64,000 bases of DNA from Gimesia algae. GTDB lineage: Bacteria; Planctomycetota; Planctomycetia; Planctomycetales; Planctomycetaceae. Position 1 is the stretch's first letter. Every line of letters starts with the position of its first letter. The notes below the pieces were generated by a model. That model ran no database searches. It was given only the letters and a program-made list of their open reading frames with translations, and was not told the origin of the DNA. Of the stretch, positions 1-62,735 are shown in pieces. The position numbers were made by a program, and so were the translations under genes. The stretch covers positions 5,431,357 to 5,495,356 of the forward strand of contig NZ_CP036343.1 in the NCBI RefSeq assembly GCF_007746795.1. Direction: 5' to 3'.

Positions 1-3000
1 CCAGACCGTTTCATACCGATCCTCGTTTCTTTTGGGGTAGTGCAGGAGTGATTGTTCTATTGCTCCTCGCCGTCACAGTTAGTTCATTACTTCCTGGGCA
101 AAAGGCAACCTCTGAACCATTAAATCAGGTTGCTTCCTCAGATCAATCAGAATTAAATGAATCTGTACCAGAAGAACCTGCTGAGTTGCCTACACCCTCA
201 ACAGGAAATGAGGCGCCCGTTACGTTGCCCCAATCTCCGGAGCCAGAAGACCAACCAGAGCCAGTTCAGGAACAAAAAACTGAACTCGAACCAAAAATTG
301 CTTTACAAATTGTTCCCACATCAAACCCGAAGATGAAACCCAAGAGTGCAGTTCCTGAATCCCCACAACTGCTGATCGCCCCCTTTAATAAGCTTGAGGT
401 GAAAAATATAAGGCAAGAATGGTCTGATTATCTCAAGCACGACAGTACTGTTACAAACAGCATTGGAATGAATCTCATCCTGATTCCCCCGGGAGAGTTT
501 ACAATGGGGAGTTCATATTCCCCTCAGGAACTACAGAAAATACTTCTATTGGGTCCAACATTTCCCGTTTCAGTGTTAGAAGATGAGTTCCCCCCACATC
601 AGGTACAGATCACCAAGCCATTTTATATGGGATCATACGAAGTCACGCGTGAAGAATTCAACACGCTGATCAAAGACAGTATGAATCAGGGTATGATAAA
701 GGGACTGGAGAGAGTCAATGTAAACAGGTTTCCAGCCTGGCGAATTTCCTGGTTCGATTGTGTTATGTTTTGTAATCAACTCAGTGAAAGGGAAAAACTC
801 CCTCCGTATTACAGTCTGAAAAATACAAAGCGCCGCTCTTTCCGTATTTCTACTGGAACAAATTCAGAGAAAACGATCAGCACCATTATTGAAGCAAATG
901 TTTCAATTAACGGCGGATTGGGGTACCGATTGCCCAGCGAAGCTGAATGGGAATATGCCTGTCGAGCTGGCACGACTTCACTCTTCCATTTTGGCTCTAA
1001 AGTTGACACAAGTAAAAGTAACCTGACCGGGATTAGACGCCCGGCACTTGGTAAGGGAATGGATTCAAGACTTGAGACGAGATTCGAGACGAGAGTGGGT
1101 TCTTATCGACCCAATAATTTTGATCTCTATGATATGCATGGAAATGTTGGAGAATGGTGCGAAGACTGGTATGAAAAAGATTTCTATCAACAATTCGACA
1201 GTCAAAAAGCAATCGATCCCTTGGGAAAGTTAGATCAGTCAGGCACACGCGTTTTTCGAGGGGCAACCTGGGTGATTCATCATTCCGCTTTTCGAAATTC
1301 TCATGGCCCCGACTCTCATGCTAATCCAATTGGCTTCCGAGTCGTACGAACTCTCGCGGCCCCAAATGACTCCCCTGGAACTCCCCAACCGCCAGATAAA
1401 ACCGCCACACATGACCTGAAGTTCTCGGTACTTTCGGAGTCCACTAAACAACCACTGAAACAAGTCATGATTCAATTATTACTTAATAATAAGGACAACC
1501 AATCTTTACTGGGAAGTACAACTACTGACGCACAGGGACTGGGACAGATTTCAATAGCTCTTCCCACCAATGCAAAGCTGGAAAACTGCCTGGTCAAACT
1601 AACCAGTAGCGGAATTAAATGGGAAAGAAAATTAGCTGATTTTCCTGAAGAATCACCACACGCTTTCACTATACCACTCCAGGATAATGCAGAGTATCTG
1701 AACCCTGAGTGGATTGAACAACGCCTCACCTCAGTCGGCGTGGATCAAATCATTAATGAATACAGCAATAGTAACAGTCTCGATGTACAAACAGTTAAAA
1801 AAGCCCTGCAGCTCTCACGACATGTTTTACTCGATAATCCACAAGCGGTACGTGAGCAGTTACAGGCCCGGCTGATAAGCCAGAAAGAGCCGGCTTTCAC
1901 TTTATTTCAAACGCTACCTGATCAGCAGATTCAAATTCGTTCCAGTTGGCCTTCTTTTAATCAGCCAGGCGGACCACTGATACGAACGCTTGCCGGGCAT
2001 TCCAGTAGCATTTCATGTCTGGCAGTCACTCCAGATGGAACGCGGGCTATTTCTGGTTCGACTGATGACACTCTCATAATTTGGGATCTTGCTACGAAAG
2101 AGAAAATTCGAACTCTCGAAGGACATTCGGATAACGTTCGTTGTGTGGCAATCACTCCCGATGGATCACAGGTCGTTTCTGGATCTTTTGATAAGACTCT
2201 CAAAGTCTGGAACTTGGCCGATGGTAAGTTGCTACGGACTCTGGCAGGACATTCGGATAAAATATCATGTGTCGCATTGACGCCAGATGGTAAAAAGATT
2301 ATTTCGGGAGACCTTGGTGGAACAATAAAAATATGGGACTTTGTCAGCGGGAGTATGATTCGAACATCGTCAGGAAATGCTTCCACGCGCCTCTCCAGTA
2401 GTATCCATTGTCTAGTCACAACACCGGATGGCAAGAATGCAGTTTCTAATGCTGGGTTTGGATTGAATCTATGGAATATCGCTTCTGGTAAATTGATTAG
2501 AACTCTCTCAGGACATTCAGGCACTATTATTTGCGTTGCAATTTCTCTAGATGGGAAGCAGCTCATTTCTGGTTCAATTGATCGGACGGTGCGTGTTTGG
2601 GATATTGTAAGTGGTAAGTTGCTTTGGGCTTTTAAAGCAAGTTCTGATTATCCAATCATGAGTGTAGGAATGACAAAAGATGGGCAACATGCAATCTCAG
2701 GTTCGCTTGGTGGTACATTGACTATTTGGAATCTTAGCAATGGCAAGATGAGCAGGAGACTAATAGACCAACTGGGAGATATTTTTTGTGTTGCAGTTAC
2801 GCCAGATGGAAAACAAGTTATTTCTGGCACCTACGAAGGAGCACTTAAAGTATGCAATCTCAATATTCAGAGTACCGCCTATCCCCAAAATAATATAAAA
2901 CATTCTAATCATGTCCTTACTGTGGCCTTGTTAACAGATGGCAAACATGTGTTTTCTGTGGAAAAAGACAATACGCTCAGGGTCTGGAGCTTAGAGAACG

Positions 3001-4721
3001 GCACGCTGGTTCGCACTCTTAAAGGACCTTCTGATCCAACATCCACTGATTTTGTAAGTTGTCTGGCCTTAATGCCAGATGGCAAATCTGCCATTTCCAG
3101 TTCCACGTTATCAAATGATTACACGCTAAAGGTTTGGAGTCTCTCTGATGGGAGAATACTGCAGTCACTCGAAGGGTATTCTGATCTCATTAGTTGTGTA
3201 GCTGTTACACCCGACGGGCAGCATGCCATCTCAGGTTCGAAGAACAATACGCTACAGCTCTGGGATCTGAGCAGTGGAAAATTAGTTAGAATACTCAGTG
3301 GACATTCTGATAGAATCAGTTGCGTGGCTGTCACACCAAATGGAAGAATGGCTGTCTCTGGTTCGTCAGATGAAACTCTTAGGGTTTGGGACCTGATGGG
3401 GGGCGGTTTGATTCATACTCTCGAAGGGCATTCTGATAGAATAAACTGTTTGAAAATAACGCCGGATGGGCAGCATCTTATTTCTGGCTCATCGGACAGT
3501 ACAGCTAAAGTCTGGGACCTGTCTAGTGGAAATTTAATTCGAACACTCAGCGGTCATTCGAACGATATCTCCTGTCTGTCTGTCTCTTCAAACGGTAACC
3601 AGATTATCTCCGGTTCTAATGACAGAACTCTTATAATCTGGGATCTCTCTGATGGTACAAAAATCAGAACATATGAATTAGATGATATTGCTACAGATAT
3701 TGCTATCAACCCGAATGATGATTTTATAATTGTTGGCAGCAGAGCAGGCCATGTTCATAATTTAGCTCTACAAGGACTCGATAAGACAAAAACCATAATA
3801 TCACCATCAACGACCTCAAAGCCTTCAACTCCTTCTAAGAAAAAGGAGAAAACTCCCCCAGTCAAAAAACTGGTCTTTTGGAATGAACCTCCGCTCCCGC
3901 GTTCCTGGCGAGCATTGAGTAAATCCACGCAGGATAAAATCGAATCCGTTCATGGGGTAGTGGATGAGCGTTTTATCTGGTGCTTGAATCTACCCCTGAG
4001 TTCGTTTCTGGAAATGCAGACAGAACTGAAGATTGCGAACTATCTCCCGCAAAGGATTCGCCCCTATAAGCACAAGGATGCCGTTTACGTTGCGTTTGTC
4101 TGTGTCCGGGATCAACATGTCTGGAAGTTGATTGCCAATGCATCTGCACAGGACATGATGAATGAAAATAAAAAACTACAGCCGGGTAACTGGATGCCTG
4201 TAGAAGCGGCTGGCTACTTTGATCAGGAAGAGAAATACACTGCAGTCTGGATCAAGGATGGCCCCTCTAAGGCTTATCTAGATATAGGCCTCACAAAAAC
4301 GGAACATAAGTCCAATTTTGATAAACTGACGAACCAGAAATGGTACATTTCACAACAAGATATATTTTATGGCGACAAGAAGCAGTTACGTTTCACAAAC
4401 GTATGGTATCCTGTCCCCAAATCTGCACCGAGATGGGCAAGCTGGTATGGTAGTTTACAAGAACATAAAAATAAGCAGGGCGTTTATTCATTTCAAACAG
4501 ACGTCTCTATTGCTGCAGCTGAATCTTTTTCAGCAAAATATGGGGGTTGCTGGATCGAACATCCCGACTATGTTTCGTTAGAACTGAATGAATTGAGTCC
4601 TGAGGAACATTACAAGGAAGCTACCCGATTGAAGAATCTTGGTTTTCGCCCCCAATCGATTGATGCAGAAGAAATGGAAGATAAGATCATCTCCGCTTCA
4701 GTCTGGTACCGACCTAAATAA
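1..4721 (+). CDS. Membrane-anchored FGE-like/WD40 repeat protein (5' end outside window)
   Basis: The frame is open from base 3, and the paralogue starting at 5166 has about 145 residues before the matching point. The true start therefore lies before the window, and the first in-frame start-like codon (GTG at 48) is inside the membrane helix. Domain order: a transmembrane helix (about 27-110), a Pro/Glu-rich linker, then a formylglycine-generating-enzyme (SUMF1) fold (about 450-1370; RLPSEAEWEYACRAGT, DMHGNVGEWCEDWY, GFRVVRT). Fourteen WD40 units follow (about 1975-3780, the last degenerate), fitting two seven-bladed propellers. A C-terminal domain (about 3880-4720; RIRPYKHKDAVYVAFVCV) resembles bacterial tandem-repeat domains. 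The FGE-like core reads RVFRGATWVIHHS, with no cysteine at the usual catalytic spot, so formylglycine synthesis is unlikely. Probable role is an envelope scaffold or sensor, with the propellers outside the cytoplasm (inference). Function is unknown. Confidence 0.85.
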   Translation, partial: RPFHTDPRFFWGSAGVIVLLLLAVTVSSLLPGQKATSEPLNQVASSDQSELNESVPEEPAELPTPSTGNEAPVTLPQSPEPEDQPEPVQEQKTELEPKIALQIVPTSNPKMKPKSAVPESPQLLIAPFNKLEVKNIRQEWSDYLKHDSTVTNSIGMNLILIPPGEFTMGSSYSPQELQKILLLGPTFPVSVLEDEFPPHQVQITKPFYMGSYEVTREEFNTLIKDSMNQGMIKGLERVNVNRFPAWRISWFDCVMFCNQLSEREKLPPYYSLKNTKRRSFRISTGTNSEKTISTIIEANVSINGGLGYRLPSEAEWEYACRAGTTSLFHFGSKVDTSKSNLTGIRRPALGKGMDSRLETRFETRVGSYRPNNFDLYDMHGNVGEWCEDWYEKDFYQQFDSQKAIDPLGKLDQSGTRVFRGATWVIHHSAFRNSHGPDSHANPIGFRVVRTLAAPNDSPGTPQPPDKTATHDLKFSVLSESTKQPLKQVMIQLLLNNKDNQSLLGSTTTDAQGLGQISIALPTNAKLENCLVKLTSSGIKWERKLADFPEESPHAFTIPLQDNAEYLNPEWIEQRLTSVGVDQIINEYSNSNSLDVQTVKKALQLSRHVLLDNPQAVREQLQARLISQKEPAFTLFQTLPDQQIQIRSSWPSFNQPGGPLIRTLAGHSSSISCLAVTPDGTRAISGSTDDTLIIWDLATKEKIRTLEGHSDNVRCVAITPDGSQVVSGSFDKTLKVWNLADGKLLRTLAGHSDKISCVALTPDGKKIISGDLGGTIKIWDFVSGSMIRTSSGNASTRLSSSIHCLVTTPDGKNAVSNAGFGLNLWNIASGKLIRTLSGHSGTIICVAISLDGKQLISGSIDRTVRVWDIVSGKLLWAFKASSDYPIMSVGMTKDGQHAISGSLGGTLTIWNLSNGKMSRRLIDQLGDIFCVAVTPDGKQVISGTYEGALKVCNLNIQSTAYPQNNIKHSNHVLTVALLTDGKHVFSVEKDNTLRVWSLENGTLVRTLKGPSDPTSTDFVSCLALMPDGKSAISSSTLSNDYTLKVWSLSDGRILQSLEGYSDLISCVAVTPDGQHAISGSKNNTLQLWDLSSGKLVRILSGHSDRISCVAVTPNGRMAVSGSSDETLRVWDLMGGGLIHTLEGHSDRINCLKITPDGQHLISGSSDSTAKVWDLSSGNLIRTLSGHSNDISCLSVSSNGNQIISGSNDRTLIIWDLSDGTKIRTYELDDIATDIAINPNDDFIIVGSRAGHVHNLALQGLDKTKTIISPSTTSKPSTPSKKKEKTPPVKKLVFWNEPPLPRSWRALSKSTQDKIESVHGVVDERFIWCLNLPLSSFLEMQTELKIANYLPQRIRPYKHKDAVYVAFVCVRDQHVWKLIANASAQDMMNENKKLQPGNWMPVEAAGYFDQEEKYTAVWIKDGPSKAYLDIGLTKTEHKSNFDKLTNQKWYISQQDIFYGDKKQLRFTNVWYPVPKSAPRWASWYGSLQEHKNKQGVYSFQTDVSIAAAESFSAKYGGCWIEHPDYVSLELNELSPEEHYKEATRLKNLGFRPQSIDAEEMEDKIISASVWYRPK

Positions 4722-7682: not shown

Positions 7683-7873
7683 GAGGTGGCGTCGGATACA
7701 AAAAGACTGTCGCACGTAAAGTCCCATAGCCAACTGATCTTAGAAGAGAATATCTGGTGAAAGAACTGAGGTGGGACAGTGCAAGTATGCCGTGAAGGAT
7801 TGTTAGTTGTGACTTTTTCGGTGCGAACGCGCGTACGCTGAACGTGAAAAAATGACTTACTTTTCGATTTGAT

Positions 7874-7981
7874 CTACGCCGCAATCCGCCGGTATGAATT
7901 GATCAGTCCTCCGAGATGTTCCTCGAAGTGGATCTCATTGTGCCTTATCGTCTCGGATTTATGACTGTTCTGCTCGCTTAT
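7874..7981 (-). pseudogene. C-terminal fragment of an IS transposase/integrase
   Basis: The minus strand reads about 35 codons ending in HLGGLINSYRRIAA and a TAG stop (7876-7874). This tail looks like the end of a DDE integrase-type transposase. No start or catalytic region is nearby, so this is a relic. It is too short for confident family assignment. It lies in an otherwise empty stretch between the terminator at 7651 and the recombinase remains. Confidence 0.35.
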
Positions 7982-8012
7982 TAATTTTAATCTAATATGA
8001 AGCTGCCAATAC

Positions 8013-8057
8013 CTAAAAAATCATAACGGCAGCCGACCCTTCAGGCCGGCCTCCGTT
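8013..8057 (-). terminator. Terminator of the broken recombinase gene
   Basis: On the minus strand a long GC-rich stem (AACGGAGGCCGGCC against GGTCGGCTGCCGTT, one mismatch and G-T pairs) is followed by ATGATTTTTT. It lies about 25 bases after the recombinase stop codon at 8083. Confidence 0.65.
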
Positions 8058-8868
8058 GAGATCGTTAACTCAGCTTTCAGATTCACGCGGTCTGTTTAGG
8101 TCGCCACCGCGAAGCATTCTCTGGTGCTTCTGTAAGCGGGATAAAGGGATCTGTCAGCCCTCGCTCCTGCAGTTCTTTCCCCATCTTTAGAGCCAAATGG
8201 GCACCACGCTTTGAGATTTCCAGATGGGCTCCGATTTCTTCCAATGTGGGTCGATGATCAGGATCCCGGTCGTAAAACTCCAGAGCAGACATCGCATTTG
8301 CAGGGGTTGATGAAGCCTCAAATAAATCGACGGTGATCTCTTCTTCAAATACTTCCGGATTTGCTGCAAGTTGTTCTTCGCCGGGCAATTGAAGGGATAG
8401 ACCTTGGCCACCGAATTTCACCAGCTGAAGTGTCATCTCGGCCCGCAGTACCACTTTGTTGCTGCCGAGTTGCTGACAGGGAACCGCCCGAATGGGCCCT
8501 TTCAATATTCGTTCCAGGACATCTCCCGCGGTACGATCCATCGAGAGAACCTGCTCTGCAGCCTCCAGGAATTTCGCAGCGATCTTATCTCGGGTCGGCA
8601 GAGATCTGGCTTGGGACAGCTGACTTTGCAGTCGTTCTTCATCAAGCTTCAGATCATCCAGTTGAGACTGAATTTCCCTTGCCTTTTCGGCCACAAACTC
8701 AGGAGGGTCATCATTACCCATCACCAGCTTCAACAGGTTATTCTGCTGCCGCTTGAGTTCGGTACGACGTCTGTTTAACTGTATTCTAAGTTGTTCGATA
8801 TTCTCGGGCGTCAGTAGTAAACGCTCTGTGTAGGCAGTCAGAGGATCCAGAATCGACTCAGAGGACCT

Positions 8869-48602: not shown

Positions 48603-51600
48603 TCACCCCTGACCGGTATAACGCGATATCATCTTCAGCAGTTCACTGGAATTGATGGGCTTGCTCAGATAGTCATCACAACCCAGTTCAAGACATCGAT
48701 TCATATCTCCCTGCATCGCATCTGCAGTGAGAGCGATGATCGCCCGACTAAATCCGATTTCCCGCAGACGGGCCGCAGTCTGATAGCCGTCCATTCGCGG
48801 CATTTGCATATCGAGCAAGATTAAATCGACAGTCAAGCCGTTCTGTAACTGATTCTCGATCAGTTCCACTGCCTGGATTCCGTCGACTGCGAATTCGGTT
48901 TCGACTCCTGCCCGCTGCAGCAACAGATTCGTCAGATGGCGGACATCACGCTGATCATCCACAATCAGCACTCGGCATTGAAGCTGGTACTCCCGCAATG
49001 CGGTTTCAGTTTTCAATGGTACCGCTTCCAGATTTAGATTCGTCAATTTTACATTTTCTCTGACCGGCAGATTAATCGTGCAGCTGAATGTACTCCCTTC
49101 CCCCGGCTTACTTGAGACCGAGATATTGCCATTCAACATATTTGCCAGCCGTTGACTGATCGCCAGCCCCAGGCCGGTACCACCGTAATTGCGGGTGACG
49201 GAAGCATCCCCCTGCGAAAACGTTTGAAATAATCGAGCCTGCTGTTTGGGCGTGATCCCTATTCCGGTATCAATGACATCAATTTTCAAAGTGGCTTCTG
49301 TTTTCTCCCTGAGATAATTAATCACGACTTGCACGCTGCCCGTCTCAGTAAATTTGATCGCATTACTGATCAGATTCAACAGGATTTGACGTAAGCGTTT
49401 GGGATCTGTTTCAATTCGTTCCGGGAGTTCGCTGATAAATTCAATCCCAAATTCCAGTTTCTTTTCCTCAGCACGGACACGCATCATGGATCGTAAGTCC
49501 GCGAGCATCTCGTTCAGCGCAAATGATTCCTGGTTGATTTCCAGCTTACCCGCTTCAATTTTTGATAAGTCCAGAATGTCATTGATGATGTCCAGCAGGA
49601 AATTCCCATTGCGTTTGATATTCTGCAGGTACTCAGCTTTGTCCTGCTGCTGCTCCATTTCAATCAACAGATCGGTATACCCCAGAACGGCTGTCATCGG
49701 CGTGCGGATTTCATGACTCATGTTTGCTAAAAACGCACTCTTGGCAATATTGGCCTGCTGCGCCTGTTTCTCGCTTTTCCGAAGTGCTTCTTCCCCTTCT
49801 CGCTCCTGGGTAAAATCCCAGTTCAGTCCGAATATCTGGGTCACATTGCCCTGCTGATCTCGTACGATTTCACCGACACCGGCTAACCAGCGGATCTCTC
49901 CATCGGCGCGCACGACTCGAAATATCTGATCGTACTCCGTTACCCCCTGAATGGCCTCTTCCCATGCTTTGGCCAGACCGGGAACATCTTCCTTGTGGAC
50001 ACAGGAAAAGAATGTCTCTGGTGATGCGGTAGTGGTATTCGGGATTCCCAGCAGTTCATACAATTCATTGGACCAGAAACTGGCATCAGGCTGCCATTCC
50101 CAGGCTGCCATTCCCCCCGCTTTCAATGCCATGAACAGTCGTTTTTCATTTGCTTCGACTTCCTGCTGAAGCTGTTTCTGTCGAGAGATATCCAGGTTCA
50201 TGCCTACCCAGCGCAACACAGACCCTTCCGAATCGAGTTGGGGCACCGCACGCACCGAGGTCCAGCACCACTCCCCTTCCCGGTTTCGCAAGCGGTACTC
50301 ACAATCAAGCGGGGTGATTGATTCAAATGCTTTCTGCCAGTTCCGCAGTGTCTGCTCACGATCATCGGGATGGATCGCATCCATCCAGCCTTTGTCTTTC
50401 CATTTCTCATAAGTCTGGCCGGTAAATTCGCGCCAGGTAGGAGAATCTTCTACAGTCCGCGCATCGGGCGTCATCGTCCAGACCATGTGCGCGGAAGCTT
50501 CTACCAGCGCCTTGGCTCGTCCTTCACTATCCCGGAGCGCGGCTTCCTGCTCTTTGCGCAAGCTGATGTCCCTCAAACAGAGAGTGAAAAACGGCTGACC
50601 ATCGTCCAGATGAGTGACGCTAATGGCAAGTTCCACCGGAAAGTGACTTCCATTCTGATGCAGCACCGATAACTCGATGTGCCGTCCGATTAAATCGGCT
50701 TCACCCGTTTTTAGAAACTTTTCCAGCGCCGTATGATAGCGTTCACGATACTCTTCCAGAAGAATCAGATCACACAATGACTTCCCGATCACATCCTGCT
50801 TGTTGTGTCCAAAAGTCTGTTCTGCTGCCGGGTTGAAATCGATGATTTCCCCGGCGGCATCGGTAGTAATGATACAATCGATGGCCGAAGTCATAATGGC
50901 ATTTTTACGGGCGACTTCCTCATACAACTGATCCTGGATCCGGCAGCGGCTGAGAAATGAACCGATCTCATGACCGATGGAAGAGAACATGTTCGCCAGC
51001 AGGAGATCGCGTTTCAAATGTTCCCGGGTATAAAACTCCATGATTCCCTGACACTTCCTGTCTGCAATAATGGGAATCGCAATACCACTGATCAGCCCAC
51101 TCTTACTGGCTACTTCATTGCGATTATACCAGACGAGCGTTTGAATATCCTCGCACCACTCGATCTGCATGCTCTCCCAGGTTCTCCCCGGTAGTCCTGC
51201 ACCGCGATCAAACTGAATCGATGAATTACTCTTCAGAAAATTACGGTTCTTAGCGACATTGGTTGCCACACTGGTTTCCAGAACAAGCCGCTCATGCGTT
51301 TTGTCGGGAAGCCAGAGCAGACCCACACTCGCCTGCAGACATTTGCGAATGGTTTGCAGAATCGTATGATCGATTTCTTTTAATGAATTTGCTTCGGCCA
51401 ATAGTTGTGAAATCGTATGTTCGGTCTCCAGGCGAATCTCTGCCAGCTTGAATTCCGTGACATCCATAAAGGTCAGGATCATCCCGTCAAATTCACCATC
51501 ACTTTCATAAGGCAGTATGCGTCGCAACAGCCAGGTCCCGTTTTTCAGCTGCATCTCATCTTCGAACTGACCGTTTTGCCTCCTGGTGTTTTCGAGCGAG

Positions 51601-53936
51601 GGGATCCTTGGCATTCGTTTCACGTTATGAGTAATATCCGAAAGCGGACGGCCCACATCAGTCGCATTCAGATTATAAATTTCGCCGGCTGAGGAAGTAT
51701 AACTTTTGATCTGCATCTGACGATCCAGATAAATCGTTGCAATTTTTGTCCCGTTCAGCAGATTTTCCAGATCAGACTGAACGCGAGTCAGCGCTTCCAT
51801 ACTGGACTGAATTTCTTCCTTGGACGTCTCCAACTCCTCATTGGCCGACTGCAGTTCCTCATTGATGGATAACAGTTCTTCATTCGAGGATTTCAGCTCT
51901 TCATTGGAACCTTCCAGGTCCTGCACGCTGTTTTCCAGTTCCGTGCGTGCCCGCTCCAGTTCTGATTCCAGTTGCTCTATGACGGTGTCTGTCTCTGCCG
52001 CATCAGCGTTTGACCTTTCTGAAAAAGAAGTATGATGCACGATCGGTCCCTGGTCTTCAAAAATCACCAGAAACAATTCTGCATCCTGACTGATTTCGGG
52101 TAGCGGGTGAACCACCATTCGTGCGCGTCGCAGGCAGTCACCTGTCTTATAAGACAGGTCCTCGACTTCCACCTTCTGTCTCGTCTTACAGGCTTCCGTC
52201 AAAGCAGTCCTTAAGCCGTTCCGCAGACCGGTGCGCGTCATCTTGATGAGATTATTATGAAAACTCCCCTCAGGAAATTCCAGAAACTGCTCAATCCCGG
52301 CTGACGTGGTCAGAATATGTGCTTCCTCACTGACAACGGCATAACGGGGAGCATACTCTGTCAGCAGGATGCGTTCAGCAATCCCGGGGATATTTGCCGT
52401 TTGTACTTCCAGACTCTGTTTACCAGCCAGATAATTTTGGGATCGAGTCGAAGGGTAACGCAATGTAGAGGTTTGAATGGGAACCGATTTACGCTGGGAA
52501 ATACAATGTTTCTTATCCAGTGGACGAAACATTTCCGTGTGCATCATCATATTTTCAGATGGCCCCAGCAGTAAAAGGCCATTCGGTTTCAAGGCAAAGT
52601 GAAATATTGGAACAATACGCTGCTGCAATGGCGCGTCCAGATAAATCAGCAGGTTACGGCACGAAATCAGATCCTGTTGAGAGAAAGGCGGATCGCTGAT
52701 GAGATTATGGGTCGAAAAAACACACAACTCCCGGATCTCTTTGACCACACGGTAATGCTTCCCTTTTTTGATAAAAAAACGTCCCAGCCGCTCCTGCGAA
52801 ACATGTTCTTCAATGGAAAGTGGATAAACGGCCTCCCGCGCGATCGCCAGCGCCCGCTCATCAATGTCGGTCGCAAAAACATGCATTTCCACATCAATCT
52901 TTGCCTGTTCCCGGGCTTCATACAATAACATGGCCAGTGAATAGGCTTCTTCTCCACTGGCACAACCAGGAACCCAGATGCGTATCGGTTGATCCCGCTC
53001 CCGATCCTCAAACAGATTCGGAATATATTGCTTTCCCAGAATCGCGAAGGTTTCCGGATCGCGAAAAAAGTCTGTCACGCTGATCAACAACTCGCGAAAC
53101 AAGGACTGCGCTTCTTCGCGATTCGTTGCAAGCTGCGACAGGTATTCCTTCACGTCGCTCAGCCGCAATACCTGCATGCGACGGATAATCCGGCGTATTA
53201 ATGTCCCCGTTTTGTAATGCCGGAAATCGTGGCCGGTCTCTTCCAGTAACTGATCGCAGATGCGTGGCAGATGGTTTTCCACCTCGTTCAACAAGTCCCG
53301 CTCATCGTTCTTCTGCCGACTGGACTGTTTCAGAAACGACAGGTAAGCATCCAGTTCCGCTGGCATCTGCTCCGGCTGCAGGGTATGGTCGACGTGATCG
53401 ATTCGAATCGCATTAGCAGGCATATCTTCATACTCGGAAGATTTCGGATCCTGAACCATCGTCATTCCGCCGGCTTCCCGGATCGCATTCAGACCATAGC
53501 TGCCATCACTGCCCATTCCCGAAAGCACAATACCCACTGCATTCGGGCCGACAATCTCCGCCAGGGAACGAAATGAGGGATTGATCACTGGAGTACCCTG
53601 TCCCTCCTGCGGCACTGCGCTTGCGGAAAAATGAGAATCGTCGTCAAACTGGACGCTGCAATGCGGCGGGACAATATAAACGTGATCCTTTTGGACCCGT
53701 GTATTCTGATCGATGCTTGAGACAGGCAGAGGACAGATATGCTCCATCGATTTCAGTAGAGCCTGTGCACCTTCAGGCAACATATGCTGAATGACAACGA
53801 TCGCATAGCCGGGCTTGTCTTTAATGGTCGAAAAGAAATTCTTAACGGCATTCAGTCCACCAGCAGAAGCGCCGATTGCAACAACAATTAATGTGGAAGA
53901 GTTCTGAATGTGTTTTTTTTCCGCAGATTTTGGCAT
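48603..53936 (-). CDS. CheB-CheR-PAS-GAF hybrid histidine kinase with receiver
   Basis: A 1777-residue signalling protein. Order: CheB methylesterase (about 15-190; IGASAGGLNAV, HMLPEG, GMGSDGSYG give the Ser-His-Asp triad); CheR methyltransferase (about 220-490; VPGCASGEEAYSLAM, NLLIYLD); a long coiled-coil (about 640-740; ELKSSNEELLSINEELQSAN); PAS; GAF (about 870-1010); three PAS domains (about 1030-1400); HisKA with phospho-His in FLANMSHEIRTPM; HATPase (NLISNAIKF, DTGIGI, GGTGLGLAI); and a C-terminal receiver with the phospho-Asp in LILLDMQMPRMDG. No transmembrane helix is seen, so it is cytosolic. CheB/CheR modules in such proteins need not act on chemoreceptors. No partner regulator gene is adjacent. 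It probably controls a stress or behavioural output. Confidence 0.9.
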   Translation of the reverse strand: MPKSAEKKHIQNSSTLIVVAIGASAGGLNAVKNFFSTIKDKPGYAIVVIQHMLPEGAQALLKSMEHICPLPVSSIDQNTRVQKDHVYIVPPHCSVQFDDDSHFSASAVPQEGQGTPVINPSFRSLAEIVGPNAVGIVLSGMGSDGSYGLNAIREAGGMTMVQDPKSSEYEDMPANAIRIDHVDHTLQPEQMPAELDAYLSFLKQSSRQKNDERDLLNEVENHLPRICDQLLEETGHDFRHYKTGTLIRRIIRRMQVLRLSDVKEYLSQLATNREEAQSLFRELLISVTDFFRDPETFAILGKQYIPNLFEDRERDQPIRIWVPGCASGEEAYSLAMLLYEAREQAKIDVEMHVFATDIDERALAIAREAVYPLSIEEHVSQERLGRFFIKKGKHYRVVKEIRELCVFSTHNLISDPPFSQQDLISCRNLLIYLDAPLQQRIVPIFHFALKPNGLLLLGPSENMMMHTEMFRPLDKKHCISQRKSVPIQTSTLRYPSTRSQNYLAGKQSLEVQTANIPGIAERILLTEYAPRYAVVSEEAHILTTSAGIEQFLEFPEGSFHNNLIKMTRTGLRNGLRTALTEACKTRQKVEVEDLSYKTGDCLRRARMVVHPLPEISQDAELFLVIFEDQGPIVHHTSFSERSNADAAETDTVIEQLESELERARTELENSVQDLEGSNEELKSSNEELLSINEELQSANEELETSKEEIQSSMEALTRVQSDLENLLNGTKIATIYLDRQMQIKSYTSSAGEIYNLNATDVGRPLSDITHNVKRMPRIPSLENTRRQNGQFEDEMQLKNGTWLLRRILPYESDGEFDGMILTFMDVTEFKLAEIRLETEHTISQLLAEANSLKEIDHTILQTIRKCLQASVGLLWLPDKTHERLVLETSVATNVAKNRNFLKSNSSIQFDRGAGLPGRTWESMQIEWCEDIQTLVWYNRNEVASKSGLISGIAIPIIADRKCQGIMEFYTREHLKRDLLLANMFSSIGHEIGSFLSRCRIQDQLYEEVARKNAIMTSAIDCIITTDAAGEIIDFNPAAEQTFGHNKQDVIGKSLCDLILLEEYRERYHTALEKFLKTGEADLIGRHIELSVLHQNGSHFPVELAISVTHLDDGQPFFTLCLRDISLRKEQEAALRDSEGRAKALVEASAHMVWTMTPDARTVEDSPTWREFTGQTYEKWKDKGWMDAIHPDDREQTLRNWQKAFESITPLDCEYRLRNREGEWCWTSVRAVPQLDSEGSVLRWVGMNLDISRQKQLQQEVEANEKRLFMALKAGGMAAWEWQPDASFWSNELYELLGIPNTTTASPETFFSCVHKEDVPGLAKAWEEAIQGVTEYDQIFRVVRADGEIRWLAGVGEIVRDQQGNVTQIFGLNWDFTQEREGEEALRKSEKQAQQANIAKSAFLANMSHEIRTPMTAVLGYTDLLIEMEQQQDKAEYLQNIKRNGNFLLDIINDILDLSKIEAGKLEINQESFALNEMLADLRSMMRVRAEEKKLEFGIEFISELPERIETDPKRLRQILLNLISNAIKFTETGSVQVVINYLREKTEATLKIDVIDTGIGITPKQQARLFQTFSQGDASVTRNYGGTGLGLAISQRLANMLNGNISVSSKPGEGSTFSCTINLPVRENVKLTNLNLEAVPLKTETALREYQLQCRVLIVDDQRDVRHLTNLLLQRAGVETEFAVDGIQAVELIENQLQNGLTVDLILLDMQMPRMDGYQTAARLREIGFSRAIIALTADAMQGDMNRCLELGCDDYLSKPINSSELLKMISRYTGQG

Positions 53937-55080: not shown

Positions 55081-56595
55081 TCATTCCGTTTCCAGCTTCT
55101 TTTCCGGCGGCCCATACAGTCGTTCTCCACTGGCAGAGAACCGTCCTCCATGGACGGGGCAATCCCAGGTCTGTTCTACCTCATTCCATTGAACGACTCC
55201 CCCCATGTGAGTACAGATCGGACTGTGGGAATGCACACAACCGTTGCGGTCGCGGCAGACCGCTGCAAACTTTCCATCCACTTTACCCACGGCTCCCTCT
55301 CCAGGCTGCAACACATCCACATTGATTTTCTGAGCCGGTAAAACGCGTTCGGCCAGATTGACTGCCGTTGTAGTGCCTTCCGAGATCACCTTTCCAACTG
55401 ACGTTATATTTAACCGCCCAGGGGACAGTTCTTCTGTCAAGCTGTTTGACTTACCGATAATAAGATCAGCCAGCATCGAACCCGCAGCAGTTCCCAGGGT
55501 CAAACCTGTTCCACTGAAACCGGTCGCGATCCAGACATTCTCCTTGCCGCGCACTTTTCCAATAAAAGGCAAACCGTCGGTCGGCTCAAAAAACTCCGCA
55601 CTCCAGCGTGATACAATGGAGACCACCTGGAATCGTTCTCGAGTCCACTCTTCCAGATGATTCAACGAAGCCGTCGTGTCGCCAGCACCAGTCCGGTGAT
55701 CACAGCCTCCGACGAGAATGAGATCTTCCTCGTCTGTTGCACGACGAATATAGAAATAGGGGTCTGAGTCATCCCAGAACAATGCATCTTCCAGAGGGAC
55801 CCGAACTTTGGCAGCAAGAACATAAGATTGATAGGCGGGTGTTTCCAGATAGAGTTGCTGAAAGTCAGTAAAATTACAGTGAACTGCACAGACGACCTGA
55901 TTAAAATAAATCTCATGGTCGGCAGCCGTCTTCAGCGATGAAGGTGCTGGTTCGACGGGACCACTGACCTGCGTCTGTTCAAAAATCTGTCCCCCTTTTT
56001 GAACAACCAGTTCTGCCAAAGACTTGAGGTAACTCATACAATTTATGCGAGCCATTCCCTGAATAGCATAGCCGCCCACTGCCCGGGGAACAGGAACCTG
56101 GTCGGTCCAGTTCACAGAAAGCCCGATTTTCTTCGCGGCCTCATATTCTGCTTTGACATCATTCAGGGCCTCTTCGTGTTCGGTATAAAAATATCCCTCT
56201 ACAGATCGAAACTCACAGTTTTTGTCACATCGACTTTGAATCGCACGGATTGCTTCCAGTCTCATCAGGGTATAAGCGCGTGCCTTCTCTTCTCCCATCT
56301 GATTCAGTAACGCCTGCGGGCCGATCTCTGGATGAGCATCCAGGTGGCCGCTGCTGCCACCAGTTGTTCCTGCTCCGATGACGGATGCTTCGCACACGGT
56401 GACTTGCCGTCCGCGCTCCAGTAATTCCAAAGCGACACTCAGTCCTGCAATCCCTGCTCCCACGATCAAAACATCTGTATGATGATTTTCCTCCAGCACA
56501 GGGTACCTGGCATCCAGAGGCTGATCATGCAGCCAGAACGATTTATGAATAGCAGAGGGTGAGGATATTTTTTGTTGAGATATCGTTTGTTTCAT
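55081..56595 (-). CDS. FAD-dependent oxidoreductase with C-terminal Rieske domain
   Basis: A 504-residue protein. A DAO-type FAD domain begins at VLIVGAGIAGLSVALELLER and has an FSGTGLTLGTAAGSMLADLI motif near its end. The last 90 residues are a Rieske [2Fe-2S] domain with CTHMGG and CPVHGG as the ligand pairs. I took ATG 56595 after GGAGA; the frame extends to 56679. The family (YhfW-like) oxidises an amine or other substrate, with the Rieske cluster as electron relay; the substrate is unknown. No membrane segment or signal is seen. Confidence 0.88.
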   Translation of the reverse strand: MKQTISQQKISSPSAIHKSFWLHDQPLDARYPVLEENHHTDVLIVGAGIAGLSVALELLERGRQVTVCEASVIGAGTTGGSSGHLDAHPEIGPQALLNQMGEEKARAYTLMRLEAIRAIQSRCDKNCEFRSVEGYFYTEHEEALNDVKAEYEAAKKIGLSVNWTDQVPVPRAVGGYAIQGMARINCMSYLKSLAELVVQKGGQIFEQTQVSGPVEPAPSSLKTAADHEIYFNQVVCAVHCNFTDFQQLYLETPAYQSYVLAAKVRVPLEDALFWDDSDPYFYIRRATDEEDLILVGGCDHRTGAGDTTASLNHLEEWTRERFQVVSIVSRWSAEFFEPTDGLPFIGKVRGKENVWIATGFSGTGLTLGTAAGSMLADLIIGKSNSLTEELSPGRLNITSVGKVISEGTTTAVNLAERVLPAQKINVDVLQPGEGAVGKVDGKFAAVCRDRNGCVHSHSPICTHMGGVVQWNEVEQTWDCPVHGGRFSASGERLYGPPEKKLETE

Positions 56596-57023
56596 GTGAT
56601 TCTCCAGCAAACCGAACTTGTGATACGATTCGCGCATTCGTAGCCTGTTGATAATGCAACATCTCTCCCAACGGAGCATTCAAGAGTCCTCTGGAAGTTG
56701 CATTTTTCATGCCACACCTCTTACGGAAAGGACGGGAATCGAATTATTTAGCGGGAAGCAACTCCCCTTTCCGGCATTCCGTCTAAACAAATCCCAGGCG
56801 AAATCAGATGAGCAAAAAATAAGTTTCAGTTATTGGTCAAAATAAACCTGAAATATACCGTTCAGATACTGATTCTCTCTCTTTGAGTACGACATCCTGA
56901 CAGCCCTGCATGCTTCTCAAGGAAGCGCAGCAACAGTCTTGAACCATCTCCGGACCAGGGGTTTTTCAGATCGAACTGTCTGATCAGCGATCATGCTGAA
57001 CTGTCACCGTGCGGAAAGAAGGG

Positions 57024-57944: not shown

Positions 57945-60900
57945 TCAGACGGGACTTCCATTCAGAACAAAGTCCGAAAGTGGTTCGTCCAGACCGGTTG
58001 ACGTTCCGATAAAGCCGAAGGAGACCGTGCCACCAGCGGGAATATCAGAATTCCAGGAGGCACCCCGAATCACATACGTGTTTCCCACGTGTGAAACAAT
58101 CTCGGCGTTCCAGATATCCGTAATATTACCATCGAAGGTGAACTGCAGCATCCAGCCTTCCATAGGCTGGTCACTTTCATTCCGAATTTCCATCGCGCCC
58201 TGGAACCCGCTGTTCCAGGCATCCACGACATCAAAGTCCACGGCGCCCGCCGCAGTCGGTGCATCGTTGTCCTGAATACTTCCCGTGCCTGTAGTGGCCG
58301 CAATCGTACCACCCACTGGCTGATCAAGGATAACCTGGAAGCTTTCACTCCCTTCCTGATCCATATCACCCAGGATCGGCACCACGATCGTTTTCGTCAG
58401 CTCTCCTGGCTGAAAGATCAGCTGGCCATTCACCGACTGATAATCCGCACCAGCGACCGCCGTTCCATCGACTGTATGAAACTGAACTGTCACCAGTTCA
58501 GTCGTCGGTTGATCCAGTGAAACAGTAAACACTGCCTGTTGACTCCCACTGTCACCTTCTGTCACATTTACATCATTGATGGAAATTTCCGGGACAATCA
58601 CCATGAATGCTTCCACGGTGACATGCACCGTCGTACTGATGATGCTACCCGAATCAGAAACCGTTGTGAACACGAAGCTGTCTGCTCCTGAGAAACCAGC
58701 GTCTGGTGTATAAGTCAGCGTTCCATCCTGATTGTTGACCACCTCACCATGTACAGGTTGAGAAACAGACTGCAGCGTTCCTCCTGCTCCCAGCGAGGAC
58801 GAAGGACTGATGTAGTTGCCCGACATCACCAGCATACTCAACATCGACACAGAGTCCGCATAGTAATTCGAATGCGTCGTTGCCACACTGTCGAAGACCG
58901 AATTCATCCACGCCTGGTCACCCGCGTCTGAACCGGTCATCGCCGACACACCGACCGCCGCACGGAAAAATGGATCGCTCCAGCTGTTGAGCGGCGTTCC
59001 ATCCAAAGCATAGCCACCTCGAATCAATGCCGGATCCCCACCCGAAGACTGCTGAAAGAATTCCGACAGCATCTGCGCCTGCGTCAGCGAGACCGCGTCT
59101 CCACTCAACACCGCGTCAGCACCAATCCGCCAGGGCACACGCCCCGCGTTGTACCAGTAATGCTGATCATTCACTTCCAGGAAGCCCGAAGGCGCAGGCG
59201 AAACATTCCCGGTCGTCGGATCGACAATCACAAAGTCCGGCACCAGACCCGTACCCGATTGCTGCTGCAGTTTCGTCATCACAGCCTGAGTCGCCGCGAT
59301 CACTTCATTCCAGGCTCCCGTACCGGTTGCGGCTTCAAAGGCGCGGAAGTGACCATACATGAAATCGCTGGTACGTACAGACCACTGATTCCGCCCACCA
59401 CCATAAGGATTCACCCAGTCACCCAGCATCGGCAGATGACTGTCCGGTCCTATGGTCGAAGCGTACATGGCATCAATAATCGTAATCGCTTCCTGCAGAT
59501 AGTTGACCGCGCCGTCACTTCCCCATTGAGCATCTGCAACGAGCAGCGCATAGGCAATATCGGCGTCCCCATCGAAGGCGCTACTGTTTCCGTACGCATC
59601 CGGCTGCGCCCAGTCCATCAGATCAGGATTCCCTTCGCTGGGATTCGCACGCGAATACTGAAACAGGCCATCGAAAATCGCCTGGGCCTGTGGATCGCAT
59701 CCATCCATATGCGCCAGAACCAGCATCCCGTAACCCTGCGCTTCGGATGTGGTTCGACCTGACGCATCCATAATCACCCGGTATCCATTCCCTCCCGGGT
59801 CCGCACGCAACCAGTCCGCTTTCCAACTGTCATAGTAGTTGCTCACAATCTGATCCAGCTGCGCCTGACTATATTGGCTGGGGAATAACGTCCCGTCGAC
59901 ATACGATTGAACATGGCTGCCATAATCAGGATCGCCTCCCGAACTTCCCGCGGCTATTGTGACTGCCGTCTCATAAGGCGTCGTCACAGACAATTCATTC
60001 TCGCTAACCACTTCCGCATCGTCATTGGTAATGACTGTGGTCGCCGATGACAGACTCGCATCCAGCGTCGCTCCCACCGGACTGCTGAGTGTTACATAGA
60101 ACTGTTCGTCCGGCTCTACCAGGCTGTCACCAAATATCTGAACCGAAATCGTCTTCGAAGTTTCTCCTACTGCGAAGGTAACCTGACCACTGGAAGCTTC
60201 ATAATCCTCACTGGCGGTCGCCGTCCCATTGGAAGTCTGATAGTTAACGACAACCGTTTGAGTCGCTGGTTCAGACAGGGAAACCGTCAACGTAGCCGAC
60301 ACGGTCCCGCTAATACCTTCTGCAACAGTCGCTCCGCTGATACGAACTTCAGGAACCACTTCGTCAGGAGGCTCCACGATGCTGCCCTCCAGAGGAACCG
60401 GATTCTGATAATACTCCTGCACCCTGGTGATCCACCAGTAGTCATCCGTTGGTTCACTGCCGATTCCATCGGTGCTGATGCCGACCCCCGCCCCGAACAG
60501 AATCTGCCGGATACCGGCGGCGCGCGCTTCTTCCATATGCGATCCCCAGGTGATCGTGTTGCCGGAAACGGTCAGCTTCGCATCACCCAGATCATTCGTC
60601 GAGAAATAATCCAGCCGATTTCCACTGGCCGTAAACGTATCCCCCAAGAAGAAGGAAGCTGCGGAATCTTCATACTGCCGCGTTGTGTTGGTCAAGGGAT
60701 CAAACACACCATTCGCGTCATAGGGGTTCACCGCCTGGCTGTCATTGATGTGACCAACGGGCAACTGCCAGAGTACCATTTCACGTTCAGTCGTTTCCGT
60801 GAGCGTCTGCACAATCAGCAGGTAATTCTGCCAGTGATCGCTGTTCCAGAACCAGGTACTCGCTTCCGGATTACTGGCTGCCCCGTTCTGCGCCCCTGCA

Positions 60901-62735
60901 TCCAGTCCATACTTATCGAGGGAGACGAACCCCGCCCCGTAACTCAGAATACCGGCGTCCATGTAATACTCGGCAATCAGTTCTGCTTCACGGGCAATCG
61001 CTGCCTGACCGGCTGCGACTCCCATTGTATCCGTCAAATGCACGATTCCCGTGCCCGGAATGGGGGTTTCGATCCCAGGTGAAGCCCAGAGATTGAACTG
61101 CCAGCCAAACTCCACGTTCGGTGCAAAATGACTGATGGTATAATTGATCGCTTCAATCAGCCCCGTCACCGTATTGTCAAACTGGGGATCAACGCCTTCC
61201 TGCAAAACGCCACTGCTGTAAGCGGCACTCGTTACAGCCGAAATTGCACTCGCCGATGTGCCGGCATTCTGCATCAGGTAACCGATGAAGTCCGGTTCCA
61301 GAATCATCTGCACCAGTTCGTCACCTGCTTCGGTGCGAATGGTGTCCAGCGCGAATTTCAGGTCACGAAAATAGTTTTCCATATACGACTGACTCTGGAT
61401 GTGCTCCAGGTTGGTCGTATAACTTTCGCCGCCATCAGGAATATTGTAGTACACGAATTGCGGAATCATTCCCAGCTTCATGCTTTCGCGTACATAACTG
61501 CTCACACGGTCTGGATCCCAGCTTCGCCAGCCGGTAAGCGGCCCCCCATTGAGATAGATATAACGCGAGTCGACATATTTGCCGGTTAACGAATTGCTGT
61601 CATCAAAATCCTGCCAGAAAGCCAGGTCACCGGTCGTGTCTTCGCTGACCGAACCGATGGTCAGATAATCCGGAAGCCCCGGCAGTGCGCCCTCTGCCGT
61701 ACGTACGCGAAACCCGATATAACGATCTTCGCCGCTCTCAACATCGGTAATCCGCACAGACGACCGTCCTGCTTCGAGACCGGTAATCCGCAATGTATTG
61801 CCGTTAACGATCTCTGCGGTGACTGCCCGAGAATTACTGACTGCTACGCTGAACTGACTCGACTCACTCGAGGAGGCCAGCGTGTATTCGTAAACTGTTT
61901 CCTGATCAATGGTGACCTGTAAGGCCTGCCCGGCACTGTCGACTCCCTCAATGCTGATCAGACTGGCGTCACCAGCCACATACACGACTTCATCGCTCAA
62001 AGTTGCTCCGTTTGCGTTACTGACTTCGACCTGATAGCGAAACACACCGTAGTCCCGGTTCGTAATCAGCAGACTGTCCGTTTGCGGGGTCGCATTTCCC
62101 GTCAGATCTGCTTCATGAATCACTTCGCCATTCTCGTACAACTTCCAGTGATTCGCTGCTGACCCTGCCCACAGATTGAGAGTCACACGAAAACCGCCCG
62201 AAGCCTGATCTGTCAGCACACTCACGCTCGGCTGATTCGGTGCATTGACCACAGGATCGGGATCCGGGTCTGGATCCGGGTCGGGGTCAGGGTCAACGGG
62301 ACTTCCACTCCCGTTAAACGCAAACCCGCTGGGCTCACTGTAAGCGCCAACAGCCACAAGTCCAATCGCCAGCGTTTCACCTGCATCCAAAGTCGCATCC
62401 CAGCTGGGAGGCGTAATCCGATAGCGGCCCCCCCCGAGATTCTCCACTTCGGCATTCCACAGTGACTGGATCTCACCGCTGAAATCAAACTCCAGTTGCC
62501 AGTCGGTAAACGCCGTTGCTTCATCGTTATTCAGAATCAGGTTGGCTGTCCGACCGGAGCCCCAGTCCTGATCCACCTCAAATTGCACATCGGGTGCATC
62601 CGCCAGTGGATGGGCGGTGAGCATCGTCCGCACCTCCAGTGCCTCGATCTGTCTTGCTGCCTGAGCACGTGATCGCCTGGGAGTGCCGTGCTGTTGAATG
62701 AACCATTCAAGAAGTGTTGCGTAAAGTCGTTTCAT
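57945..62735 (-). CDS. Secreted multimodular glycan hydrolase (CBM2, unassigned domain, GH8, CBM2)
   Basis: A 1596-residue protein. N-terminus has basic residues and an ALEVRTMLTA motif typical of large planctomycete secreted proteins. Domains: CBM2 (about 48-146); a linker of repeated PD (150-165); Ig-like (about 170-255); about 255-345 beta-rich; a catalytic-sized domain (about 350-785) with VQMILEPDFIGYL, unassigned; Calx-beta (about 793-908); GH8 (about 935-1308) with GRTTSEAQGYGMLVLAHMDG and FDGDADIAYALL; a cadherin/Big-like domain (about 1315-1375; GTLTYTPDAGFSGADSFVFT); Calx-beta (about 1380-1490); CBM2 (about 1497-1596). GH8 members cut beta-1,4-glucans, so it probably degrades cellulose or similar glucan outside the cell. 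Its start follows a hairpin (62744-62759), with no clear Shine-Dalgarno. A terminator follows the stop. Confidence 0.85.
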   Translation of the reverse strand: MKRLYATLLEWFIQQHGTPRRSRAQAARQIEALEVRTMLTAHPLADAPDVQFEVDQDWGSGRTANLILNNDEATAFTDWQLEFDFSGEIQSLWNAEVENLGGGRYRITPPSWDATLDAGETLAIGLVAVGAYSEPSGFAFNGSGSPVDPDPDPDPDPDPDPVVNAPNQPSVSVLTDQASGGFRVTLNLWAGSAANHWKLYENGEVIHEADLTGNATPQTDSLLITNRDYGVFRYQVEVSNANGATLSDEVVYVAGDASLISIEGVDSAGQALQVTIDQETVYEYTLASSSESSQFSVAVSNSRAVTAEIVNGNTLRITGLEAGRSSVRITDVESGEDRYIGFRVRTAEGALPGLPDYLTIGSVSEDTTGDLAFWQDFDDSNSLTGKYVDSRYIYLNGGPLTGWRSWDPDRVSSYVRESMKLGMIPQFVYYNIPDGGESYTTNLEHIQSQSYMENYFRDLKFALDTIRTEAGDELVQMILEPDFIGYLMQNAGTSASAISAVTSAAYSSGVLQEGVDPQFDNTVTGLIEAINYTISHFAPNVEFGWQFNLWASPGIETPIPGTGIVHLTDTMGVAAGQAAIAREAELIAEYYMDAGILSYGAGFVSLDKYGLDAGAQNGAASNPEASTWFWNSDHWQNYLLIVQTLTETTEREMVLWQLPVGHINDSQAVNPYDANGVFDPLTNTTRQYEDSAASFFLGDTFTASGNRLDYFSTNDLGDAKLTVSGNTITWGSHMEEARAAGIRQILFGAGVGISTDGIGSEPTDDYWWITRVQEYYQNPVPLEGSIVEPPDEVVPEVRISGATVAEGISGTVSATLTVSLSEPATQTVVVNYQTSNGTATASEDYEASSGQVTFAVGETSKTISVQIFGDSLVEPDEQFYVTLSSPVGATLDASLSSATTVITNDDAEVVSENELSVTTPYETAVTIAAGSSGGDPDYGSHVQSYVDGTLFPSQYSQAQLDQIVSNYYDSWKADWLRADPGGNGYRVIMDASGRTTSEAQGYGMLVLAHMDGCDPQAQAIFDGLFQYSRANPSEGNPDLMDWAQPDAYGNSSAFDGDADIAYALLVADAQWGSDGAVNYLQEAITIIDAMYASTIGPDSHLPMLGDWVNPYGGGRNQWSVRTSDFMYGHFRAFEAATGTGAWNEVIAATQAVMTKLQQQSGTGLVPDFVIVDPTTGNVSPAPSGFLEVNDQHYWYNAGRVPWRIGADAVLSGDAVSLTQAQMLSEFFQQSSGGDPALIRGGYALDGTPLNSWSDPFFRAAVGVSAMTGSDAGDQAWMNSVFDSVATTHSNYYADSVSMLSMLVMSGNYISPSSSLGAGGTLQSVSQPVHGEVVNNQDGTLTYTPDAGFSGADSFVFTTVSDSGSIISTTVHVTVEAFMVIVPEISINDVNVTEGDSGSQQAVFTVSLDQPTTELVTVQFHTVDGTAVAGADYQSVNGQLIFQPGELTKTIVVPILGDMDQEGSESFQVILDQPVGGTIAATTGTGSIQDNDAPTAAGAVDFDVVDAWNSGFQGAMEIRNESDQPMEGWMLQFTFDGNITDIWNAEIVSHVGNTYVIRGASWNSDIPAGGTVSFGFIGTSTGLDEPLSDFVLNGSPV

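Follow-up and report, generated by a model that had tools for sequence, protein, structure and literature searches.

On balance, the central barrel domain of a 1596-amino-acid protein from Gimesia algae appears to represent an undescribed family of glycoside hydrolases, distantly related to GH6, that would cut insoluble beta-1,4-glycans of the chitin or chitosan type, and possibly of the cellulose type. The domain (aa 350-786; 60378..61688, reverse strand) lies within the 64,000-nucleotide stretch of DNA analysed here, referred to as the window. Since its relatives are widespread and often joined to chitin-cutting enzymes, the barrel is probably an undescribed family cutting chitin- or cellulose-type polymers. 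In these relatives GH18 is the recognised enzyme, and the adjoining 437-residue barrel is nameless in Pfam and NCBIfam. Should the barrel prove to be an enzyme, the breakdown of chitin (or chitosan) by bacteria would include a widespread component not counted so far, and GH6 would acquire a distant sister family that kept the acid motif and replaced the base.

Domain organization of the Gimesia protein

The gene occupies 57945..62735 on the reverse strand and begins with an ATG, as delimited from the ORF list, its translation and Pfam matches. From the N-terminus, the product comprises a CBM2 module (62307..62588; Pfam PF00553, 61 bits in a search of the organism's own genome), a ChitinaseA_N-like domain (aa 181-253; 61977..62195; PF08329, 25.2 bits against a cut-off of 21.2), the barrel domain, a first Calx-beta spacer domain (aa 813-905; 60021..60299; Pfam), a GH8 catalytic domain (aa 963-1303; 58827..59849; PF01270, 86.9 bits in the genome search), a Big_9/cadherin-like repeat (aa 1319-1375; 58611..58781; Pfam), a second Calx-beta domain (about aa 1385-1480; 58296..58583; a second PF03160 stretch whose limits are approximate, being estimated visually from the PDB matches at aa 1390-1474) and a C-terminal CBM2 (57954..58241; PF00553, 86.8 bits), all encoded on the reverse strand. 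Pfam bears out the preliminary description of this DNA, which had placed CBM2 modules at both ends of the protein around a GH8 domain and a further domain of about 435 residues; the ChitinaseA_N-like domain was absent from that account. Across the 7.93-Mb genome, both CBM2 matches and the sole GH8 match found by Pfam lie inside this gene.

The product is a large secreted-type bacterial protein, and its N-terminus contains, near aa 30-41, IEALEVRTMLTA, which we take to resemble a motif of large exported planctomycete proteins. A chance origin of the reading frame was ruled out, because the barrel domain is retained free of stop codons, at 66-100% identity, in 13 of 40 related genomes (12 of 17 from the same organism or genus and 1 of 23 others); three plus-strand ORFs within the gene (59160-59762, 60258-61082 and 61128-61589) are probably shadows. 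Elsewhere in the window we observed a 1777-aa fusion of CheB, CheR, PAS domains, a histidine kinase and a receiver (48603-53936, reverse strand), an FAD-dependent oxidoreductase with a C-terminal Rieske domain (55081-56679, reverse strand), and a 1572-aa ORF, open at the window edge, with an FGE-sulfatase domain and many WD40 repeats (3-4721, forward strand).

The GH8 domain exceeds its Pfam cut-off (82.7 bits versus 24 in the protein scan) and matches, among PDB sequences, the glucanase 5xd0 at 1.3e-71, chitosanases at 9.7e-57 and 1.1e-56, and CelA at 1.1e-29. The Glu of the TSEAQGYGM motif is present, and the Y-[DN]-x-x-R site carries Asn in the window (YNAGR), in chitosanase (YNASR) and in 5xd0 (YNSCR), but Asp in CelA (YDATR). 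An Asn replacing the CelA base Asp marks the chitosanase/lichenase-type subgroup of GH8. CelA, the classical cellulase, is accordingly the more distant relative of the partner domain, and the glucanase and chitosanases are the nearer ones, which speaks against the label "cellulase" originally given to the protein.

Searches of family libraries with aa 350-786 returned no family over cut-off in Pfam (E<=10) and no match in NCBIfam (E<=1). The only Pfam similarities at E<=10 were to GH6, over domain residues 63-154 and below threshold (15.2 bits, E 0.019; the cut-off is 27), and to FGFR3_TM, an implausible match that we attribute to chance. A phmmer search of the PDB with the whole protein matched the barrel region to scaffoldin only (E about 0.02-0.05). 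Among the matches listed from the open-licence literature, no title or beginning of an abstract dealt with the barrel domain. Named by neither Pfam nor NCBIfam, the family may correspond to a recently created CAZy GH family.

Relatives of the barrel domain and their enzymatic partners

A pattern scan of GTDB contigs recovered 115 relatives of the barrel domain, of which 80 (60 of clade A and 20 of clade B) form the basis of the locus-level analyses. Alignment A3 comprises 54 rows, namely 53 of these 80 loci and the window sequence, and splits into a clade A of 46 rows and a clade B of 8, the latter from Enterobacterales, Vibrio and Aquimarina; the 27 loci outside it (15 of clade A, 12 of clade B) are near-copies or partial matches. 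The two clades were joined by hhalign with a probability of 100% over 404 columns, and NCBIfam produced a single weak match to urease, in one of the 54 rows. The 54-row tree carries 12 phylum labels, several of them belonging to metagenome bins that may be misnamed. Among planctomycetes, the domain was detected in 21 of 392 genomes, in 12 of these at E below 1e-100. A weaker, separate planctomycete branch outside A3 (L108-L116; 9 of the 22 matches listed, spread over 8 genomes with E-values from 1.3e-16 to 9e-4) matches domain columns from about 37 to 321; five pieces of it gave no Pfam family at E<=0.1, and it may constitute a further sister family. A viral origin was rejected after a scan of viral_contigs gave two pattern matches and no relative.

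Four records of a plasmid collection also carry the barrel domain, three labelled Salmonella and one Vibrio campbellii. Locus L014 (OX345454.1) comprises a LysR-like gene (identified by eye), GH108, GH18 and the barrel domain, which is also carried by two short Salmonella "plasmid" records similar to it. Since locus L076 possesses a similar GH18-plus-barrel arrangement on a 426-kb contig of S. enterica diarizonae, the L014-type Salmonella records, judged from L014, look like pieces of chromosome and not plasmids. At L095 (S. enterica arizonae) the ORF at 7848-8747 encodes no more than 299 aa, where related ORFs reach about 1000, and this barrel-domain gene is probably decayed or interrupted.

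The partners of the barrel domain point mainly towards chitin. Of 41 full-length proteins of clade A scanned with Pfam (E<=1e-4), 25 contain CBM2, 13 GH18, 11 ChitinaseA_N and 4 CBM5/12; the 21 families detected included no GH5, GH6, GH8, GH9 or GH48. By tblastn, 17 of 60 clade A loci have GH18 within the barrel ORF itself and 23 of 60 have it in or near that ORF, while 8 of 20 clade B loci have it nearby (31 of 80 loci overall, in or near the barrel ORF). Because two of the four GH18 queries derive from the same lineages as loci in the set, the matches at L019 and L076 represent self or near-self hits; similarly, the eight clade B loci were probably all matched by the same-branch GH18 query, and may reflect one inherited arrangement. 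These counts are lower bounds, since a Pfam scan of L056 revealed a GH18 neighbour additional to that found by tblastn. Further evidence is provided by the tree, in which the rows nearest Gimesia (L017 and L020) are GH18-fused with support of 100/100, as are 7 of 9 further rows in the next starred clade. Given that Gimesia has GH8 where its nearest relatives have GH18, the partner enzyme has probably been exchanged. GH8 was found at 1 of 80 barrel loci, a Gimesia MAG, and in 9 of 12 Gimesia-genus genomes searched, which are exactly those possessing the barrel domain.

Chitin operons around the barrel genes were rejected as a possibility from a scan of neighbouring proteins. The neighbour set consisted of 113 proteins from 20 loci, chosen mostly because they lack a GH18 fusion, of which 102 (18 loci) were scanned with Pfam; GH18 was present in 4 of these and CBM5/12 in 3, and the best 25 of 125 neighbour families were mostly unrelated. 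Within the genus itself, GH18, GH20 and LPMO10 were detected in none of the 12 Gimesia genomes searched (one of them 76% complete), so that chitin use by Gimesia is doubtful. The available excerpt of one report states that a Gimesia isolation medium included N-acetylglucosamine, which says nothing on polymers (PMC7716864).

These results bear on an alternative reading, in which the barrel would be a cellulose- or beta-glucan-active GH6-like enzyme and the whole protein a bifunctional cellulase. CBM2 modules, which suit cellulose equally well, stand at both of its ends, the best PDB match of GH8 is a glucanase, the barrel is kin to GH6, and the chitin-related families sought in the 12 Gimesia genomes went undetected. 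The relatives argue otherwise: GH18 accompanies the barrel in 13 of the 41 full-length proteins, where the cellulase-associated families GH5, GH6, GH9 and GH48 are missing from the Pfam matches, GH6 was found by tblastn at 0 of 80 loci, the sister rows are GH18-fused, and GH18 lies nearby at 8 of 20 clade B loci. An absence of GH6 from 199 planctomycetes is given no weight here, the controls of that search having been silent. We consider this alternative unlikely, and the observations on relatives undermine the earlier wording of a "cellulose-bound" enzyme. A chitin- or chitosan-type substrate is favoured for the barrel family as a whole; in Gimesia itself chitosan, mixed-linkage glucan and cellulose are all candidate substrates.

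Predicted fold, conserved residues and kinship with GH6

AlphaFold2, supplied with A3, modelled the Gimesia barrel domain at a pLDDT of 91.4 and a pTM of 0.92. Its core strands, read from the strand list, span domain residues 10-14, 41-47, 75-81 and 126-131, followed by 192-199, 254-258, 303-309 and 393-398, with three short extra strands between the last two. A model of clade B, generated from an alignment free of clade A rows (pLDDT 85.1, pTM 0.89), also has eight core strands, ordered as in the Gimesia model.

Profile searches revealed a consistent similarity to GH6. Run against 177,635 PDB sequences, the A3 profile gave five matches at E<=10, all five of them GH6 (best 0.0016), with the similarity spanning strands 3-4 and the EPD motif over about 100 residues. 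A profile weighted to clade B (A8) yielded eight PDB matches, the top four being GH6 (E-values of 0.0007, 0.0017, 0.0024 and 0.21), followed by four unrelated sequences at 0.7-3. When aligned by hhalign to nine GH6 sequences, the family reached 90.9% (clade A alone 81.9%, clade B alone 49.9%) with a score of 51.0, compared with at most 22.6 when the columns were shuffled 200 times and match columns set from the first row. One shuffle of an earlier 20-shuffle control had reached 99%; we treat this as an artefact of column setting, since a rerun with match columns taken from the first row gave 0.1%. The corresponding comparison with four GH18 sequences gave 0.1%, and kinship of the barrel with GH18 was rejected.

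Structural comparisons were less discriminating. With the Gimesia model, Foldseek placed GH6 at rank 1 (E 3.1e-6; TM 0.30 over the query and 0.43 over the target) and GH53 at rank 2, with other barrels scoring almost alike; with the clade B model, GH1, GH10, GH113 and GH53 outranked the first GH6, and GH6 occupied ranks 7, 13, 23 and 30 among the best 50. Matches of the barrel domain in BFVD were mostly to generic or unnamed proteins at low TM. Based on the profile, hhalign, shuffle and Foldseek results, we regard the domain as a barrel of the glycoside hydrolase type whose link to GH6 is real but distant. The preliminary description had anticipated a catalytic-sized barrel with a GH6-like EPD motif: the AlphaFold2 model is indeed a barrel, the GH6 echo exceeds its controls, and a barrel with conserved acidic residues belonging to no Pfam or NCBIfam family is what was found. 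The comparison with GH6 and other TIM barrels that it proposed put GH6 first for the Gimesia model, at low TM values and with GH53 close behind.

Conservation across A3 highlights a putative active site. The barrel domain contains VQMILEPDFIGYL, with EPDF at aa 480, as well as YLNGGPLTGWRSWDPDRV. Three residues are Asp in 54 of 54 rows, namely D482 (domain D133; codon 61290..61292, reverse strand), the Asp of the EPD motif just past strand 4; D607 (domain D258; 60915..60917, reverse strand), in the DKYGLD motif at the end of model strand 254-258, the sixth; and D612 (domain D263; 60900..60902, reverse strand). Also invariant, among others, are domain residues W201, W286, W307, Q308 and G312, with W656-Q657 of the protein (60765..60770, reverse strand) belonging to a WQxPxGH motif at strand 7; D350 and D415 (domain numbering) are Asp in 53 of 54 rows. 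The conservation of W201, W307, Q308 and G312 is biased, as these residues lie within the patterns used for finding loci, WQxPxGH being one of the two; D482, D607 and D612 lie outside both. The Glu preceding the EPD Asp (E131) is present in 46 of 46 clade A rows and 0 of 8 clade B rows, where it is N or S in all eight.

From this arrangement, D482, the proposed general acid, would protonate the leaving glycosidic oxygen in the manner of the GH6 EPD Asp; D133 occupies the position of the GH6 proton donor, T. reesei D221. Either D607 or D612, to which the base role is assigned because the GH6 base motif is missing, would activate or orient a water molecule for a single-displacement attack, and the family is thus probably inverting. 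The CBM2 modules would hold the protein on the polymer surface, where GH8 (GH18 in relatives) could make a complementary cut; two cutting modes on one chain, as originally proposed, are likely.

An alternative explanation is that the barrel is a degenerate enzyme serving as a non-catalytic module for polymer binding or chain lifting. Consistent with this are the missing GH6 base and second Asp motifs and the loss of E131, replaced by N or S, from all 8 rows of clade B. Across 54 divergent rows, however, three Asp and a number of aromatic residues never vary, and at loci such as L028 and L035 the barrel is the only domain of catalytic size, as judged from ORF length and domain position. Furthermore, mean identity to the window protein in seven Gimesia-genus orthologues is 88.7% for the barrel and 89.0% for GH8, compared with 81.3 and 77.7% for the CBM2s and 69.7-81.0% for seven other parts. 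The barrel is conserved like GH8, a pattern that a second working catalytic domain would show, and we therefore view loss of catalysis as unlikely.

The resemblance to GH6 does not extend to its other catalytic motifs. The general-acid Asp of the EPD motif is present and was aligned with the GH6 EPD by both HMMER and hhalign. Conversely, the second Asp of the LPDRDC-type motif, which we take to be T. reesei D175, is missing: R-D is invariant in the nine GH6 rows, where the window reads IPDGGES and clade B NASGG, domain residue 86 being Gly in 35 of 46 clade A rows and Ser in 8 of 8 clade B rows, and residue 87 Gly in 37 of 46 and 8 of 8, respectively. Similarly, the W(I/V)K..GE.DG-type motif of the last strand, whose W, K, G and D are invariant in the nine GH6 rows and whose candidate base is presumably D401, was not seen in A3; the last core strand of the window domain reads ILFGAGVG. 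The GH6 fold is a 7-stranded distorted barrel. The sole Pfam similarity besides a chance match, and all A3 matches in the PDB, acid motif included, might suggest that the domain is a diverged member of CAZy GH6. This is very improbable given the 15.2 bits against a cut-off of 27, the eight core strands of the models against seven in GH6, and three types of motif that the nine GH6 rows have but that were not seen in A3, namely RD(x)C, D(T/S)SRNG and W(I/V)K..GE.DG. The GH6 idea of the preliminary description consequently survives as distant kinship, through profiles and hhalign, and not as membership. The marks of clan GH-A are likewise missing: its barrels (GH10, GH53, GH1) carry the acid Glu at strand 4 (NEP) and the nucleophile Glu at strand 7, whereas strand 4 here ends in (E/N/S)PD and the WQxPxGH motif at strand 7 has no invariant Glu.

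In its most specific form, the preferred reading of an undescribed family describes an Asp-based inverting enzyme attacking chitin or chitosan that pairs a GH6-type acid with a new base at strand 6, occurs under about a dozen phylum labels and is frequently fused to GH18; judged from sequence and models, we give this full combination somewhat less than an even chance. If true, multidomain chitinases would contain a further way of cutting chitin that has escaped notice.

Comparison with known systems

A possible parallel is found in Andreprevotia ripae, for which the available excerpt of a published study describes a secreted protein, IGB42_00302, with two CBM5/12 and no predicted CAZyme activity, increased on alpha-chitin and with homologues mainly in chitinolytic bacteria (PMC8802321). 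The A. chitinilytica member of the barrel family (L055) likewise has two CBM5/12 stretches and adds ChitinaseA_N and Big_2 (Pfam), whereas the two CBM5/12 are the only recognizable feature reported for IGB42_00302 in that excerpt (PMC8802321). Judged from this description alone, IGB42_00302 may be a member of the barrel family, and we offer it as a lead only. GH8 glucanase and chitosanases (5xd0, 1v5c, 7cju) resemble the GH8 of the window, with an Asn at the CelA base position in common, a likeness that concerns the partner domain and not the barrel.

GH18 chitinases, which are characterized by the motif DxxDxDxE, share a barrel fold with the domain but show no profile similarity to it, and their motif was not seen in A3. 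Compared with GH6 (PF01341; 6fao, 1dys, 3a64), the barrel domain is longer (about 437 residues versus about 300), has another strand order, lacks the GH6 base motif and differs in its invariant residues (DKYGLD, WQxPxGH); the two share strands 3-4 with Y-N-I/L-P-D and (L/I)EPD, and an Asp at the proton-donor position.
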